Source: Allosphingosinicella indica
GTDB lineage: Bacteria > Pseudomonadota > Alphaproteobacteria > Sphingomonadales > Sphingomonadaceae
Direction of reading: 5' to 3'
Assembly: GCF_900177405.1 (NCBI RefSeq)
Contig: NZ_LT840185.1
Span: 2,161,501-2,225,500 of the forward strand
Length of the DNA stretch: 64,000 nt
The notes under the pieces were generated by a model. The model was not told the DNA's origin, did no database searches, and was given only the letters and a program-made list of their open reading frames with translations. Positions 52,972 to 62,875 of the stretch are shown one piece after another (the stretch's first letter is position 1; each line of letters begins with the position of its first letter). The translations under genes were made by a program, and so were the position numbers.

Positions 52972-55413
52972 CTAGAACTCGCCGGCGACGCCGACGCGGA
53001 CGACATTGTTCTGATTGCCGCCGTAAGCGAAGCCGGCGGTGACGGCGAAGGGGTTTGCGGTGTCGAAACGGTGGGCCAGCGCGCCGCCGATCGCCTGCGC
53101 ATCGCGGAAGGTCGCGCCGTTGACGACGTAGGAGGTGCGCCCGGGAGCCGAGGGCATCGGTGCCTGGCCGATCGCGGTCGCGGCGGCGATACCTTCGCGC
53201 GAATCGCGCTGCACGCGCGCAAGAGACTGATCGAGGCTAAGCAGCGCGTCCGGTCCGAAATCGGCGAGGGCGAGATTGCCGGCTGCGTCGGAAGTGACGT
53301 AGCGCAGCGGCCCTGTCTGCGCCGCCCGGCTTGCCGCCGAGCCGATGCCCGAAAGGGTATAGGTAGATGTCGCGGTGCCCAGTACGATCTGGCCGGGACG
53401 CGATGCGACGGCGCCTTCGCCGATCGCGACGCTGCCAGCCGCGCCGGCATTTGCGCCGTTGCCGAGCGCGATCGCCGACTGGCCGTTGGCGATGCTGTCC
53501 GCACCGATCGCGACGGCGCCAAGTCCGGTCGCGCGGTTGTCTGCGCCGATCGCCACGGCGCCGCGGCCGGTCGCGATATTGGGGTCGCCGATCGCCACCG
53601 CTCCGTTGCCCGACGCGACGTTGGCGAGACCGATCGACACTGCCGCGCCGTCCTGCGCGACCGCGCCGCTGCCGATCGCGACCGAATGATCGCCGCTGGC
53701 GACGCTGCCGCCACCCAAAGCGACGGCGTCCGCACCGCTGGCGATGGCCGCCGGGCCGGTGCTGCTCGTCTCGAGATAGGCGGTGCGCTCGAACGCGCGA
53801 TCGGCGGTGGCCTGTGCGACCGCGGTCTCTGCTGCGTTCGATGCATTCGCGGCCCGCGCTTGTGCCGCAAGCCCGTAGGCATCATCGGCTCGGCCCTGCG
53901 CCGCTGCCGCATCGCGCAACGCGCTGTCCGCGCTGGTCTGTGCCGCGCCGGCGCCGGCGAGCGCCGTATCGGCCGTCAACTGAGCCACCCCTGCGTAGCT
54001 GAGTGCCATATCGGCAGTGCCTTGCGCGGCGGCGGCATCCCCCACTGCGACGTCGGCAGTGCTCTGGGCTGCCGCGGCATCCGCAATACCGTCATTGGCC
54101 AAAGCCCGAGCGGTTGCCGCTTCCAATCGCGCGAGGTCGGCGGTGCCTTGTGCCGCAGCCGCGTCGCTGGTTGCAGCATCGGCCGTATCTTGTGCGCCCG
54201 ACGCTGCTGCAAGCGCGCTGTCGCCCGTAGCCTGCGCCGCTGCGGCTTCGGCACGCGCGACCGTTGCTGTGCCTTGCGCGATGGCGGCGTCACTGAGGGC
54301 GTCGTCCGCGGTGGTCTGAGCGCCGGATGCTGCTGCGAGCGCGTCATCTGCGGTGCCCTGGGCATTGGTCGCCTCGCTTCGCGCGGTGTCGGCTGTGCTT
54401 TGCGCGGTTGCCGCGTCGGTGAGCGCGTTATCCGCCGTGCTCTGTGCTGTCGCCGCATCCGCGAGCGCGTCATCTGCGCTGCTCTGCGCTGTCGCTGCAT
54501 CCGCGCGCGCGGCGTCGGCAGTAGCCTGAGCGGCTGCGGCGTCGGCCAACGCGTTCGTCGCATCGCTTGCGGCGGCGGAGACGGCCTGATCAGTCGCGTG
54601 GAGCTGACTACCAGTCACGGCGTCAGTGCTGGTCGCGCCGACGCGGCCGGCAGTGACGTTGGTGATCGCGCGGGTCGCGCCGCTGGCACCGACAGACACA
54701 CTGTCCGCTTCGTCCGCGACCGATCCCTGGCCGAGCGCGACGGCGTTGCGCGCTGTCGTCCGGCTGTTCGCGCCGAGCGCGGTACCGTTCGCCGCGATGC
54801 CGCCGCCGTCGGCAGATGCGCTCGCGCCATTGCCCAGCGCCACGCTGTTGGTGCCGAGCGCCTGCGCGCTTTCCCCTGCTGCATTCGATCCACCGATGGC
54901 GGTGCCGTAATTGCCGCTGGCACGCGCGCCGCTGGCGCCGTTCGCCGCACCGCTGCCGATAGCCGTCGAACCGAGGCCGCTGGCGGAAGCACCCGCGCCA
55001 CCCGCACCGCCGGCCGCGCCGTAGGTACCTTGCGCGCCCGAACCGATCGCGACCGATCCGGAGCCCGTCGCCGCGGCGCCAGCACCGCCCGGGCCCGCAT
55101 TGCCGGCCGTGGCATTGCCGCCGTTGCCGCCCGACCCGACCGAGATCGCGCCCGCACCGTTGCCGTTGGCGCCTGCGCCGCCATTGCCGCCGCGCCCTGC
55201 GCTGGAGTTGCCGCCACGGCCGCCGGAGCCGACGCCGAGACCGGTCGGTCCCGCCGTAGCCGCGGCACCGGCGGTGGGGGCAGGGGCAACGGTGCCGCTG
55301 CCAGCCGCGCCTCCGTTTCCGAAGACGAGTTGCGCCAGCGCGGGATGCGCAAAGCCGCACGCGGCGGCGGCGGCAAGCAGGCCCACCCGGCGGTGGTAAC
55401 GGAGCGCGGACAT
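52972..55413 (-). CDS. YadA-like trimeric autotransporter adhesin
   Basis: The protein has 813 residues. A signal peptide ([18 protein letters not shown]) is followed by a Gly-rich segment, then YadA-head repeats ([34 protein letters not shown]; about 115-245) and a neck, [20 protein letters not shown] (about 250-270). The stalk (about 285-545) consists of 14-residue repeats, each ending in a pattern like AQGTADxAL. A second head (about 555-670) with [10 protein letters not shown]-type repeats comes before a 70-residue C-terminal membrane anchor ending in VRVGVAGEF. Such proteins trimerise in the outer membrane and bind surfaces. It lacks a long ESPR signal extension. Having heads on both sides of the stalk is unusual. 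The LytS/LytTR operon lies next to it and convergent. Confidence 0.85.
53779..54561 (-). repeat. 14-residue (42-bp) stalk repeats in the adhesin gene
   Basis: Residues about 285-545 can be read as roughly 18 degenerate copies of a 14-residue unit such as [42 protein letters not shown] and [14 protein letters not shown]. Fourteen residues correspond to two heptads, so a left-handed trimeric coiled coil is expected. The DNA copies differ, so the repeat is old, but copy-number change by slippage or recombination is possible. Confidence 0.8.
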
Positions 55414-56254: not shown

Positions 56255-56686
56255 TCAGCCCTCCACCACTTCGAGGCCCATCGCGCGGGCGGAGCCTTCG
56301 ATGATCTTGGTCGCGGCCTCGATGTCGTTGGCGTTGAGATCCTTCATCTTGGTTTCGGCGATCTGCGCGAGCGCCGAACGCTTGATCTTGCCCGCGGAGA
56401 CCTTGCCCGGCTCCTTGGAGCCCGACTTCAGGTTCGCGGCCTTCTTGATGAGGAAGCTCGCGGGCGGCGTCTTCGTTTCGAACGAAAAGCTGCGATCGGC
56501 ATAGACGGTGATGACGGTGGGGATGGGCATCCCCTTTTCCATCTCCTGCGTGCCGGCGTTGAACGCCTTGCAGAATTCCATGATGTTGACGCCGCGCTGA
56601 CCGAGCGCGGGGCCGATCGGCGGGGAGGGGTTGGCGGCGCCCGCGGGCACCTGGAGCTTGATATAGCCCGTAATCTTCTTTGCCAT
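56255..56686 (-). CDS. rplK: 50S ribosomal protein L11
   Basis: The protein has 143 residues from the ATG at 56686: [39 protein letters not shown], and the C-terminal [21 protein letters not shown]11 binds the GTPase-associated region of 23S rRNA. A reading three codons longer is possible but not typical. It has its own 240-bp leader after a bidirectional terminator, so its promoter must lie within that leader. Confidence 0.98.
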
Positions 56687-56928
56687 GCGTCTCACTCTAT
56701 AGCGGGCCAGCTAGATGGGCGATGCGGCGGGCCGCACCGTCCGAACAACCGGCCGGTTCAAGTTTAGCGGTTCAAGCGGCGCCCGAGGGTGCCTCCCGCA
56801 CATTTTCCATTGCAGATGCGTTGGACGGCCGCGGCCCTAGCGCAAACGGCGCGGGAAGGGAACAGCGAATCGGGTGAAAAGTGGCTCCCGGCTAGGACAA
56901 CGGGTAACGCACTTCGTTTCACCGCAAT

Positions 56929-56957
56929 AAAAAAGCCCCGCAAAAGCGGGGCTTTTT
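56929..56957. terminator. Strong terminator between the 12-codon ORF and rplK
   Basis: AAAAAAGCCCCGC, loop AAAA, GCGGGGCTTTTT: a 12-13 base-pair stem (seven G-C pairs extended by A-T pairs) with T-tracts on both strands. It follows the tiny ORF by 15 bp and precedes rplK. Confidence 0.93.
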
Positions 56958-56972
56958 CATAGCGTTGTTAGC

Positions 56973-57011
56973 TTAGCGCCAGTAGCCGCCGCCGAAAATC
57001 CAAGCCCACAT
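56973..57011 (-). CDS. 12-codon Trp-rich small ORF (leader-peptide-like)
   Basis: The ORF reads MWAWIFGGGYWR and stops at TAA. A near-perfect Shine-Dalgarno GGAGG is 5 bases upstream. The stop is 15 bp before the strong terminator. Three of 12 residues are Trp and one is Tyr, a composition like trp leader peptides, but no trp gene follows; the next gene is rplK. It may encode a functional tiny protein or be a leader whose attenuator terminates a short RNA. In Sinorhizobium a terminated trp leader works in trans as a small RNA and peptide; whether this is comparable is unknown. Confidence 0.6.
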   Translation of the reverse strand: MWAWIFGGGYWR

Positions 57012-57023
57012 GTTGACCTCCAT

Positions 57024-57047
57024 GAACACGGACAGGGAAGCCCTGTC
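57024..57047 (-). promoter_or_regulatory. Small hairpin upstream of the 12-codon ORF
   Basis: GACAGGG, CTT, CCCTGTC gives a perfect 7-bp stem with a three-base loop, within the leader of the 12-codon ORF and about 20 bases before its Shine-Dalgarno. It may protect the 5' end of the short transcript or take part in an attenuator-like fold. Confidence 0.45.
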
Positions 57048-57058
57048 GACAGTTCACA

Positions 57059-57081
57059 TTAACCCTAACGGGTAAGGTTAA
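57059..57081. promoter_or_regulatory. Palindromic TTAACC...GGTTAA element
   Basis: TTAACCCTAAC, G, GGTAAGGTTAA is an imperfect 23-bp palindrome (9 of 11 positions paired) 48 bp before the 12-codon ORF. A similar CATTAACCCTA occurs at 59458-59468, upstream of the CHASE2-EAL gene. TTAA-type half-sites are used by CtrA in alphaproteobacteria, but the spacing here is not the CtrA TTAA-N7-TTAA standard, so the binding protein is unknown. Confidence 0.4.
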
Positions 57082-57096
57082 CAAGAGGGTAACTAT

Positions 57097-59394
57097 TCAG
57101 GCGGCGCGGAAAGCCTCTCCTTCCGAAATACGGCTAAGAAGATCTTGCCATGGCATTGGACGCCCCAAGTGGTAACCCTGCATGATATCGCAGCCCATCT
57201 GCTGCAACTCCTGCAGAATCTCCTCATTCTCCACGCCTTCCGCAACCACCTTGCGTCCCAAGGAGTGCGCAAGCTGGATCGTGGAATTAACCATGATGCG
57301 ATCGCTTTGCGACTTGTTGAGCATGCTGATGAAGCTGCGGTCGATCTTGATCTCCGATGCCGGTATGCGGCGAAGATATTCGAGAGTGGAGAAACCCGTC
57401 CCGTAATCGTCGATCGAGAGCTGGACGCCCAGCGCGCTCAGCGCTTCCAGATTCGCAATCTGAATCTCGGCGCTGCCCAAGGTCGAAGTCTCGGTGACCT
57501 CCAGTGTCAGCAGCTCCGGTGCGAGCTTGTGCTTGTGAAGCAGCCGCTCGACGGTCGGCACCAATTTGTCGCTGCTCAGTAGCGGCACGGACAAATTGAC
57601 GGCGATCGTGAAGTGCCGGCCGCCGCGATTGACGTTGCCGGCCACCGCCAGAGCCTTGTCGAGCACGAAATAAGTCAGCCGCTCGATGCGGCCGCCTTGT
57701 TCGGCCGGGCCGATGAACTGATCGGGATAGATCTGGCCCTTCTCGGGGTGGGTCCAGCGGACCAGCGCCTCCGCGCCGATCAACGCCTTGGTCTGGCCGT
57801 CGAACTGGGGCTGATAGGCGACCCAAAGCTCGCCATTGTCGATCGCATGGTCGAGCCGCGCGAGCAGCGACATAGCCCAGTCGGCATCCTCGACGCTTGC
57901 GGGATTGAACGTCGCCCAGCGTTTGCCGTCGCGCGCGGCCTCGTCGGCGGCGACCAGCGCGCTCGACGCCCGCTGCGCGAGCGTCCGTGATCCGTCGAGA
58001 TCGAGGCCGAAGGTAACGCTGAGGTCGATCAGGCGGCCCGCGACCACGATCGGGCTGCGGAACAGGGCCTGCAATCCTTCAAGCTGCTGGGTGATGCCGT
58101 CTTCGGAGCCTTCGGCGGCGAGCCAGACGAACACGCCTTCGTCCGCCTGATAGATGGTCGCGCCGCCAGATCCGAATTCGAGGCGGCCGACGATCTGCTC
58201 GACCAGCTCCTTTTCCTGCTGCGGCGGGAGCGTGGCGGTGATCTGCGCATGGTTCTTCACGCGCGCAGCGACGACCATGCCGTTGTAGAGCCGGTTCTGA
58301 CGCAGGGCCTGAAGGTTGGGCATGCCCGTGATCAGGTTGGTCGTGCCGCGCAGGCGGTAGGCGCGGCGCATGCTGCGAACGATGCGGGCGACGCCGGCCA
58401 CCGTCAGCGCCATCAGCGCCGGCACGACCTCGACCCGGATGTGCTGCATCTCGAGCCACACCGGGCCGGCGAGAAGGCCGATAGCGGTGAATCCGAAAAG
58501 CGCCGTCGCAAGCCAGCGCCGCCGAAGTTTCAGAACGGCAGCAGCGAAAAGCATCGCGGCGATCAGCGGCGCGATCCAGCCGGCGTTGATGGGTTCGCCC
58601 TCGCGCAAAGTCTCGGCGCCGATGAGGTGGAACATGACGCCCGGGACAGGCCGCAAGCCCGGCACGCGGAAGCGCTCGACTGCATTGTCGGTGCGGCCGA
58701 TCACGATGCTCTTCCCGGTCAGGTCCGCTGCAGACACCCGACCGTTCAATATGTCGCTGGCGCTGAACCACGGGATCGAGCGGATATCGATGCCATAATC
58801 CACCGGGAAGAGATCGGGTGCCGGATGACGGACATCGGCAAGTTCGCTGCTGAGCGAGGGCACCAGCCGGCCGCCGACGTTGACGGCGTAGGGGTGCTTC
58901 CAGATCGCATCGTCCCACCACACGAAGAGATTGGTGTTCACCGGAGTGCCGCTGCCGCTGAAGATCGCGGGCGGAGCGTGATCGGTCTTGGCGCCGGTGA
59001 CCGGGTTCACCGTGAAGCGGGTTGGCAGCAGGACGTTGGCACTCGCTCCGCGCAGTGCGCGCGCCAAGGCGGTCGCCTGGCGGTCTGTCCCTAGCGTCGC
59101 GAAATCGGCATCGATGAAAATGCGGCGGGGTTTAGCGGCATCGACCGCATCAACCAATTCGGCGAGCATGTCGCCGCGCCAGGGAAGGGGGCCGAAATCG
59201 GCGATGCTGCGGTCGTCGATGGCGACCAGCGCGATCTGGCCGCTCGCCGGATGGCTGCGCACCTTGGCGCGCGTCACCTGCATCGCGTTCTCGACGAGCT
59301 CGCCGACCTGCGCCACGCCGAAGACGAGCCCCACCAGCAGCGCCAGAATCAGCGCTTTCCAAGGTCGTTCAACGGTGATCGTTTTAGATGTCAA
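57097..59394 (-). CDS. CHASE2-EAL protein with degenerate GGDEF domain (putative c-di-GMP phosphodiesterase)
   Basis: The protein has 765 residues. A CHASE2 sensor (about 50-260, in the periplasm) starts after one membrane segment (PWKALILALLVGLVFGVAQV) and is followed by three membrane segments (about 270-345). A GGDEF-like domain (about 350-515) has lost its GGDEF motif, so it should not make c-di-GMP. The EAL domain (about 520-760) keeps the motifs IGAEALVRWTHPEKG, NLSVPLL, LEVTETSTL, IDDYGTGFSTLEYL, EIKIDRSFI and VVAEGVENEE, so phosphodiesterase activity is expected. The gene lies between nusG and rplK, interrupting the ribosomal cluster. Confidence 0.9.
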   Translation of the reverse strand: MTSKTITVERPWKALILALLVGLVFGVAQVGELVENAMQVTRAKVRSHPASGQIALVAIDDRSIADFGPLPWRGDMLAELVDAVDAAKPRRIFIDADFATLGTDRQATALARALRGASANVLLPTRFTVNPVTGAKTDHAPPAIFSGSGTPVNTNLFVWWDDAIWKHPYAVNVGGRLVPSLSSELADVRHPAPDLFPVDYGIDIRSIPWFSASDILNGRVSAADLTGKSIVIGRTDNAVERFRVPGLRPVPGVMFHLIGAETLREGEPINAGWIAPLIAAMLFAAAVLKLRRRWLATALFGFTAIGLLAGPVWLEMQHIRVEVVPALMALTVAGVARIVRSMRRAYRLRGTTNLITGMPNLQALRQNRLYNGMVVAARVKNHAQITATLPPQQEKELVEQIVGRLEFGSGGATIYQADEGVFVWLAAEGSEDGITQQLEGLQALFRSPIVVAGRLIDLSVTFGLDLDGSRTLAQRASSALVAADEAARDGKRWATFNPASVEDADWAMSLLARLDHAIDNGELWVAYQPQFDGQTKALIGAEALVRWTHPEKGQIYPDQFIGPAEQGGRIERLTYFVLDKALAVAGNVNRGGRHFTIAVNLSVPLLSSDKLVPTVERLLHKHKLAPELLTLEVTETSTLGSAEIQIANLEALSALGVQLSIDDYGTGFSTLEYLRRIPASEIKIDRSFISMLNKSQSDRIMVNSTIQLAHSLGRKVVAEGVENEEILQELQQMGCDIMQGYHLGRPMPWQDLLSRISEGEAFRAA

Positions 59395-60401: not shown

Positions 60402-60477
60402 TGGCAGGAGTGGAGGGACTCGAACCCACGGCCCTCGGTTTTGGAGACCGATGCTCTACCAACTGAGCTACACTCCT
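60402..60477 (-). tRNA. trnW: tRNA-Trp (anticodon CCA)
   Basis: The 76-nt gene folds as a cloverleaf. The acceptor stem pairs AGGAGTG with CACTCCT, the D-loop is AGCTCAGTTGGTAGAGC, the anticodon loop CTCCAAA carries CCA, and the T-arm reads GTGGGTTCGAGTCC. The CCA end is encoded. It stands upstream of secE-nusG, the order typical for bacteria. Confidence 0.97.
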
Positions 60478-60541: not shown

Positions 60542-62875
60542 TCAGGCTGCGATCCGGCCATGGTTGGCGGTGAGGAGCTTGCGCGCCTCGGCGGCGGTGC
60601 ACGGCCGTGCGAAGACGAACCCCTGGACGCGGGTGCAGCCGAACGCCCGGACGGCAGCGAGCTGCTCCCCGGTCTCGACGCCCTCCGCCACCGTGTCCAT
60701 GCTGAGGCTGCCCGCCATCGCGACGATCGCGCGCACGATCGCACTGCTGCCCGGATCGTCCGCACAAACCGCGGCGATGAAGCTGCGGTCCACCTTGATC
60801 GTGTCGAACCGGCTGTCCCGCACATAAGCGAGCGACGAATAGCCGGTGCCGAAATCATCGATCGCCAGCCGGATGCCAAGCGCGCGTATCTGGTGCAGCA
60901 CCTTCTGCGTCAGCGGCGTGAGCTGGAGGAAGACCGTCTCGGTGATCTCCAGCTCCAATCGGTGCGGATCGAGCCCCGATTGCGACAGCGCCGAGATCAA
61001 GGTCAGCATAAAACCGGGCTCATGAAGCTGGACCGGCGATATGTTCACGGCGACGTTGATGTCGCCGGGCCAGGATGCCGCCTCGGCCAGCGCATTGCGC
61101 AACGCCCATTCACCGATCCGGCCGATCAGCCCGGTCTCCTCGGCAATCGCCACGAATTTCGCGGGCGAGACTTCGCCAAGCCGCGCATTCTGCCAGCGGA
61201 GCAGCGCTTCGAAGCCATGGATTCGGCCAGTCCCCGCTTCCACCACCGGCTGATAGACGAGCGCGAGCTCACGGGCGTCGAGCGCGGTCCGCAGCGACAG
61301 CTCGATCTGCCGCCGCTCCTCCGCCTGCTCGTGGAGGCCGCGCTCGTAGAAATAGACGTCGCCGCCGCCGTCGGCCTTGGCACGATGCAGCGCGAGATCG
61401 GCGCTGCGCATCATGTCCTCGACCGACTCCCCGTCCTGCGGCCCCAACGCCGCGCCGATGCTGGCGCCGACGAAAAGGTGCTGGTCGAGATAGAGGAAGG
61501 GCTGCTTCATCGTCTCGACGATATCGACGCACAGCCGTTCGATCGCGGCGGCGTCGATGGCGTCGGGAATGACCAGAGCGAATTCGTCGCCGCCCAGCCG
61601 CCCCAGGGTCATGCCGGGCGCGAGCACCGGGGCGAGCCGCTGCGTCACCTGCTGGAGCAGATGATCGCCCGCGACATGGCCCAGCGTGTCGTTGACGTTC
61701 TTGAAGCGATCGAGATCGATTAGCAGGATCGCGCACAGGCGATCGGCGTCGCGCGCCCGGCTGAGGGCGGTGCCTAGCGCTTCGAGAAGCTGCAGCCGGT
61801 TGGGCAGGCCGGTCAGCGGATCGTGCCGGGCCATGTGGGCAATCCGCCGTGCGGCCTGCTGCGTCTCGGTCACATCGGAGCCGACGCCGCGATAGCCCAG
61901 GAAACCCCCGCGCGGCCCGAAGCGGGGACGCGCCGAAAGCTGGATGCAACGCGCACCGTCCGGATGCGGCGCGGCAATCAGCAGATCGGCAAAGCCGGAA
62001 TGGGCCGCCAGGCCGGCGACCGCCGTGCCTATCTCTCCGCTCGATCCGCCCTCGTGCGCATCTTGCGACAGCAATGCGTCGAGCGTCATCGCCTCGATCT
62101 CTCCAGCATCCAGGCCCAACGCGCGGGCGAAGCGCGGAGAAACGTTGCGGAAGCGGAGATCGGCGTCGGTTTCCCACAGCCAGTCGGCATCGCTGCTCTC
62201 ATATTCCTTGAGAAGCAGGCTGATCGTGTCGGAGCGCTCCTCCAGCGCGAGATCGACCATCCGTCGCCGCATGAAGGCGCGCCCATTGCCGAGCACCGCG
62301 AACAGCAGCCCGACCGTGTAGATCGGCCCGAGCGTCAGCAGCAACGTCGATTCGGTGTAGCCGAGCATCTTGGTCGTCGCGGCGCCCATCACCAGGATAT
62401 AGCCGGCCGCCGCGGCGGGGGTGGCGGTGAAGACGAAGGCAGCGCCCGCCATCATGCTCGCGGTGACCAGGCAGATCGCGAGCTGATCGTGCGGCAGCGC
62501 GGCGGGAAAGAAGATAAAGGCGGGCACCGCCCAGGCGAAGCCGTAGAGAACGCTGATATGGCTCGCGCGGTCGAGCGCCTGCCGCGATGCCGCAGGCGTG
62601 TCGGCGATGCGCCGCCGGCCCACGAGCGCGCCGGTCAGGATGAGAAAGCCGAGGCCGAGCAGCCACAGGGTCAACTGGATGGAGGGCACCGAGCCGCGCA
62701 AGACGATTGCGAGCAGCACCGCATTCAATGTCTGCCCGATCGCAGCGACCTTGAGCGCCCGCCGAAGCTCGCGAAGCTGGGCCACGCGCACCCGGTCCCA
62801 GCCGGCATGTCCGGCGGGGCTGGCGCGGTTCAGCACCACTTGCCAATCCAGCGTGGGGAGACGTGCGTTGCTCAT
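60542..62875 (-). CDS. PAS-GGDEF-EAL membrane protein (bifunctional c-di-GMP enzyme)
   Basis: The protein has 777 residues. Five or six membrane segments (about 45-200) form an MHYT/MASE-like sensor region. A PAS domain (about 215-340) has WLWETDADLRFRNVSPRFA. The GGDEF domain (about 345-510) begins HDPLTGLPNRLQLLEALG with the active motif LGGDEFAL. The EAL domain (about 525-770) has GFEALLRWQNARLGE, ISPVQLHEPGF, LELEITETVFLQL, IDDFGTGYSSLAYV and TIKVDRSFI. Both catalytic motifs are intact, so it may have dual activity, with one side dominant. It lies 65 bp upstream of the tRNA-Trp gene on the same strand. Confidence 0.92.
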   Translation of the reverse strand: MSNARLPTLDWQVVLNRASPAGHAGWDRVRVAQLRELRRALKVAAIGQTLNAVLLAIVLRGSVPSIQLTLWLLGLGFLILTGALVGRRRIADTPAASRQALDRASHISVLYGFAWAVPAFIFFPAALPHDQLAICLVTASMMAGAAFVFTATPAAAAGYILVMGAATTKMLGYTESTLLLTLGPIYTVGLLFAVLGNGRAFMRRRMVDLALEERSDTISLLLKEYESSDADWLWETDADLRFRNVSPRFARALGLDAGEIEAMTLDALLSQDAHEGGSSGEIGTAVAGLAAHSGFADLLIAAPHPDGARCIQLSARPRFGPRGGFLGYRGVGSDVTETQQAARRIAHMARHDPLTGLPNRLQLLEALGTALSRARDADRLCAILLIDLDRFKNVNDTLGHVAGDHLLQQVTQRLAPVLAPGMTLGRLGGDEFALVIPDAIDAAAIERLCVDIVETMKQPFLYLDQHLFVGASIGAALGPQDGESVEDMMRSADLALHRAKADGGGDVYFYERGLHEQAEERRQIELSLRTALDARELALVYQPVVEAGTGRIHGFEALLRWQNARLGEVSPAKFVAIAEETGLIGRIGEWALRNALAEAASWPGDINVAVNISPVQLHEPGFMLTLISALSQSGLDPHRLELEITETVFLQLTPLTQKVLHQIRALGIRLAIDDFGTGYSSLAYVRDSRFDTIKVDRSFIAAVCADDPGSSAIVRAIVAMAGSLSMDTVAEGVETGEQLAAVRAFGCTRVQGFVFARPCTAAEARKLLTANHGRIAA

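Follow-up and report, generated by a model that had tools for sequence, protein, structure and literature searches.

The window, a stretch of 64,000 nucleotides from the 2.8 Mb genome of Allosphingosinicella indica, a member of the sphingomonad family, contains on its minus strand a tiny open reading frame, MWAWIFGGGYWR, of 12 codons and a TAA stop (positions 56973..57011; ATG at 57011, stop at 56975-56973), which was read from the sequence and by comparison with a conserved family. A Shine-Dalgarno (SD) sequence GGAGG (57017..57021) lies 5 nt ahead of the ATG and is adjoined by the end of a 5'UTR hairpin (57022..57057) with the inner stem GACAGGG/CCCTGTC and the outer stem GTGAAC/GTTCAT. Further upstream, a CtrA-like box, TTACCCTCTTGTTAACC (57076..57092), matches 9 of the 10 consensus bases and overlaps a -35-like hexamer CTTGTT. 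A palindrome, TTAACC-N11-GGTTAA, at about 57081-57058 combines TTAACC, which is the right half of the box, with its inverted counterpart GGTTAAT in the -10 region; its right arm is also the -10-like element GTTAAT (57058..57063; column TAnnnT of the family). Fifteen nucleotides past the stop codon begins an intrinsic terminator, AAAAAGCCCCGC-TTTT-GCGGGGCTTTTTT (56930..56957). All of these elements are on the minus strand. Direct reading of the sequence confirmed the ORF, SD, hairpin, palindrome, and terminator of the initial annotation, which had thus described the anatomy correctly but included neither the CtrA-like box nor the CHASE2-EAL gene that the unit belongs to.

This CHASE2-EAL gene (57097..59394, minus strand) lies upstream of the tiny ORF on the same strand, encodes a membrane c-di-GMP phosphodiesterase, and is the conserved genomic partner of the ORF. 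Its product matched the Pfam models for CHASE2 and EAL and has the EAL catalytic motifs, while Pfam returned no match for GGDEF. On the other side, rplK starts at about 56683-56695 and, by ORF calling, lies 277 bp downstream of the tiny ORF. A tRNA-Trp gene (60402-60477) is found at a distance of 3.4 kb. It is adjoined by a gene for a second c-di-GMP protein of 777 aa with GGDEF and EAL motifs (60542-62875, minus strand), so that the nusG-secE-tRNA block has a c-di-GMP gene on either side. Immediately downstream of rplA and on the same strand, positions 52972-55413 (minus) encode a protein of 813 aa that contains head repeats of YadA-like trimeric autotransporters as well as long repeats of the form D-A-x-x-A-Q-x-T-A-D, and which is likely a surface adhesin near the c-di-GMP genes.

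A 12-codon ORF with an SD sequence proves nothing by itself, and the tiny ORF was judged to be real because it is conserved. A DNA search of the genus revealed the ORF-plus-terminator arrangement in two further species, L005 (MWDWLFGGGYWA), where ORF and terminator at the orthologous locus are 79% identical to those of the window, and L010 (MWAWLFGENWR). Both copies are located directly 3' of an orthologous CHASE2-EAL gene, and rplK is not nearby in either species. A pattern search added a member from another genus (L034), likewise behind a CHASE2-EAL gene. When the enzyme was searched in 200 genomes of the family and the 3' flanks were read, small ORFs of 12-41 aa with the consensus M..(K/R)..RGFWDWLFGGG.. 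were found downstream of most of the best enzyme matches. Taken together, the members are 9-41 aa long and consist of a variable, often basic N-terminus and the core F/I-W-D/E-W-L-F/L-G-G-G. The exact amino-acid pattern failed as a family-wide probe and matched this genome alone, because the core varies. Three divergent members, L069 (MSIWSGWRALFGGN), L078 (MLLRILFGY), and L087, were assigned by eye and are the least certain. The window peptide is almost the core alone and represents the minimal, 12-residue form; its start is supported by an in-frame stop 24 nt upstream in the relative G267, which limits the frame.

Conservation of the Trp codons in relatives had been proposed by the initial annotation as a check of a leader-peptide function. 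In the 36 proteins of the profile set, the first core Trp is invariant and the second Trp and the Gly following it are conserved in at least 90%, yet conservation is just as high at D/E, L/F, and G positions as at the Trp positions. The pooled pN/pS is 0.25 over 39 same-length pairs, which are not independent of each other, and the small protein is under purifying selection. Five of the longer family members had no match in Pfam or NCBIfam, nothing in Rfam reaches the cut-off on the window unit, and the motif strings of the family had no match in the literature searched. Proteins this short are usually omitted from annotation. The ORF is almost certainly a real, conserved small-protein gene, and sequence comparison places it in an undescribed family of Trp-rich small proteins in sphingomonads, as the shortest among the well-supported members. 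The family conservation and the pN/pS value bear out the tiny protein that had been listed among the initial options.

The linkage to CHASE2-EAL genes is close. In Sphingomonadaceae, a separate small ORF lies behind 43/45 CHASE2-EAL genes outside one paralog clade, a count which includes the three ORFs assigned by eye, and behind 0/24 inside this clade. The underlying tree comprises 69 CHASE2-EAL proteins, 24 of which form the single, fully supported clade, and the presence of the small ORF requires 3 changes on it compared with 21 in shuffles. Two blind searches gave a similar picture. With the profile built from the 36 small proteins, the best 20 matches in 120 whole genomes were all located just 3' of CHASE2-EAL genes; the window ORF was the sole match in its own genome (E 0.055). 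A DNA-pattern scan of 84,980 species yielded 39 matches, 30 of them in short ORFs and 27 of these 30 behind CHASE2-EAL genes. All 30 belong to Sphingomonadales, including one MAG labelled Rhodospirillales that has sphingomonad sequence; the remaining nine sit in long ORFs and are chance matches. Among 289 genomes across the class, no convincing match outside the family was found in other alphaproteobacterial orders, and two weak matches were inside longer frames. The enzymes of the group linked to the small ORF retain the catalytic EAL motifs. They differ from the clade without it at only five weak positions, and no docking site is visible because so few residues separate the two groups. The second CHASE2-EAL paralog of the A. 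indica genome (L066, G000:C1:2288609-2290840) belongs to the clade without a small ORF and has a tRNA-like sequence 3' of it.

Two enzymes of the linked group lack an adjacent small ORF. One of them has a transposase gene directly 3' (L060/G123), and no copy of the small gene was found elsewhere in that genome. The other belongs to the Blastomonas-like G158, in which contig C3 carries the enzyme and contig C4 the solitary small gene (E 5.5e-10), an arrangement as in L119 and L137. Among Blastomonas-like genomes, the small gene is likewise solitary and apart from CHASE2-EAL in L119, where it is located 3' of an LpoA-like gene, and in L137 and L194. The detached copies in L119 and L137 retain the CtrA-like box, the hairpin, and the terminator; therefore, the small gene is useful in trans, which agrees with a diffusible partner and equally with a different target. 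The separation in Blastomonas could accordingly mean that the peptide has another target. Such a CtrA-controlled, small membrane-active protein acting on, e.g., polar, flagellar, or envelope machinery would be connected to CHASE2-EAL through a shared regulon and inheritance, and the own promoter and terminator of the gene as well as its retention in G158 despite detachment would fit this explanation. The near-strict one-to-one linkage across deep divergence and the genome-wide lack of the small gene in the case with a transposase gene behind the enzyme (L060, G123) argue against it, and a target other than CHASE2-EAL is considered possible but unlikely. CHASE2 is a sensory extracytoplasmic domain. 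An exported peptide signal that is perceived by this periplasmic domain would fit the adjacency of the two genes; however, neither a signal sequence nor an exporter was seen, and conservation resides in the core and not in a mature C-terminus, which makes a signal of this kind improbable.

The conserved neighborhood also bears on the proposal of the initial annotation that the ORF is a Trp leader peptide or orphan attenuator in front of rplK. Three Trp among 12 residues, a terminator downstream, and tRNA-Trp 3.4 kb away would be compatible with a Trp-sensing attenuator, whereas the gene that follows the unit is on the opposite strand in 43/64 units and its identity differs between relatives. 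Attenuation is ruled out as the conserved function because the next gene is usually a different one on the opposite strand; the conserved neighbor is the one upstream. In the window, the downstream gene is rplK and not a same-strand trp biosynthesis gene, and the Rfam model Trp_leader (RF00513) scored 17.3 bits on the window unit, far below the gathering cut-off of 41. A run of consecutive Trp codons is absent: the Trp residues of the window peptide are at positions 2, 4, and 11, and the spacing across the family is W-x-W. The vicinity of tRNA-Trp, which the initial annotation had noted, is a coincidence, because relatives carry the unit in unrelated loci, and the link to rplK was rejected for the same reason. 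An attenuator acting on rplK is thus hardly conceivable, and the unit belongs to the CHASE2-EAL gene before it.

The family members resemble each other in their upstream regions as well. A match of at least 9/10 to TTAA-N7-TTAACC is present in 34/70 units, a count that includes close relatives, compared with 0.5% of dinucleotide shuffles. The end of the box is usually found 57-78 nt ahead of the ATG with nearly fixed spacing, and a non-redundant set of 35 units gave the box TTAAnnnCTTGTTAACCAT followed by a -10-like TAnnnT. Within the 64 kb of the window, no site other than this box has one mismatch or fewer (0.04 expected). The binding site of CtrA is TTAA-N7-TTAA (PMC9437464), and the CckA-ChpT-CtrA pathway is kept in Sphingomonadales (PMC2877005). 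The genome of A. indica encodes a CtrA with 80% identity over 201 aa to Caulobacter CtrA. With CtrA-activated genes of Alphaproteobacteria (PMC9437464), the window unit shares the box sequence and its overlap with the -35 region; it differs in that its box is imperfect (9/10). Upstream of the enzyme genes, weaker CtrA-like matches with a score of at least 8 are present in 13/29 regions compared with 3% of shuffles, and none was found upstream of the window's own CHASE2-EAL gene. A terminator was detected in 58/63 family units. The unit thus appears to be a transcription unit of its own, probably under CtrA, and control of the small gene by CtrA is predicted with good confidence for most members.

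The short members in Erythrobacter-like genomes have no clear CtrA box. Their ORF starts about 60 nt past the stop of the enzyme gene, an inverted half site ATGGTTAA is present, and these ORFs may be co-transcribed with the enzyme gene. In eight such loci (L097, L102, L109, L125, L129, L136, L140, and L141), the element TGGTTAA, an inverted CtrA half site, precedes the start by about 35-45 nt and is followed by a short hairpin around GGAGA.

The region preceding the ORF is structured. The 48 nt ahead of the ORF have a mean folding z of -2.18 over 59 units, 31 of which are below -2, compared with a mean of -0.07 and 8/139 below -2 in control windows. The SD sequence is paired with a probability above 0.5 in 38/59 units. 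Between groups, the stems, for example CCCCTTG..CAAGGGG, TCTCCTA..TAGGAGA, and CGTCTCC..GGAGACG, have almost no sequence in common but still pair with the SD region. Covariation was counted in a single small group (A2), where 97.7% of cells are paired with one two-sided change, which is not beyond shuffles. The window has a weaker hairpin (z=-1.07), the end of which lies just ahead of the SD, and the SD is not clearly covered by it. Together with the CtrA-like box and the terminator, the leader folding strengthens the initial suggestion that hairpin and palindrome indicate regulation of the unit itself.

A unit of about 150 nt with a promoter, a structured 5' end with non-random hairpins, and a terminator might also give rise to a regulatory sRNA derived from the 3' region of the phosphodiesterase gene, in which the ORF would be incidental. 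This is quite improbable, given that the amino acids are conserved as reflected in the pN/pS, whereas the UTR sequences have diverged almost completely; a dual-function RNA is conceivable. The combination of a short Trp-rich peptide with a hairpin pairing the SD is also reminiscent of type I-like toxins, which are small hydrophobic peptides with an SD-occluding leader. In contrast to what would be expected of a toxin, the gene is present in a single copy per genome, is vertically inherited, and is tied to one signalling gene. No plasmid copies were seen in a search with the window unit only, viral matches were due to chance with no viral copies seen, and the peptide is too short for a membrane span, all of which makes a toxin function very doubtful.

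According to these comparisons, a monocistronic-looking unit consisting of box and promoter, hairpin, ORF, and terminator is almost exclusive to one CHASE2-EAL group. That the small protein modulates the CHASE2-EAL phosphodiesterase is suggested by this pairing; it is the favored explanation and is given a little less than an even chance. In the proposed sequence of events, phosphorylated CtrA would switch on the unit in one cell-cycle or motility state, and the 5' hairpin would keep translation low or conditional. The Trp/Phe core of the peptide would lie at the membrane surface, where the peptide would bind the membrane-anchored CHASE2-EAL protein and adjust its phosphodiesterase activity, either as an inhibitor or as an activator. 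The state of CtrA would thereby be relayed to the c-di-GMP level. The members without a CtrA box, the position of the window hairpin, not clearly over the SD, the lack of a visible docking site on the enzyme, and the separation of the two genes in Blastomonas speak against this model. The complete scheme, in which a dedicated phosphodiesterase regulator of 12 residues (9 elsewhere, as assigned by eye) is made from a CtrA-driven, hairpin-gated mRNA and couples the CtrA pathway to c-di-GMP turnover, is put forward tentatively, as roughly a one-in-three prospect.

The closest functional analogy is MgrB, a 47-aa membrane protein of enterobacteria and repressor of the sensor kinase PhoQ (PMC8534201). 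Both are tiny proteins with a key Trp; MgrB tunes, and the sphingomonad protein would tune, a membrane signalling enzyme in one regulatory circuit. Like MgrB, the sphingomonad protein has fewer than 50 aa (9-41) and is genetically tied to a sensor, namely CHASE2-EAL. However, MgrB is a membrane-spanning protein with a kinase as its target, whereas the sphingomonad protein has a c-di-GMP phosphodiesterase as its partner and is not of membrane-spanning length; its hydrophobic core comprises only about 8-10 residues, and no MgrB-type transmembrane helix was found. In Sinorhizobium, trpL (rnTrpL/peTrpL) contains a 14-aa, Trp-containing ORF that precedes and attenuates trpE(G) (PMC7298713). It shares with the sphingomonad unit the short Trp-containing ORF in an alphaproteobacterium and the terminator at the end, whereas the latter has no trp gene or conserved gene downstream and has its own CtrA-like promoter. 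For the trans action of a Trp peptide, peTrpL is a helpful parallel, not a relative.

Genome comparison has linked an uncatalogued family to a partner gene and a likely regulator and has shown that its leader is structured; therefore, its function is directly testable. If the link to the phosphodiesterase is true, sphingomonads would have a route by which the cell-cycle regulator CtrA reaches c-di-GMP, and few gene-encoded regulators of signalling enzymes would be as short as these small proteins.
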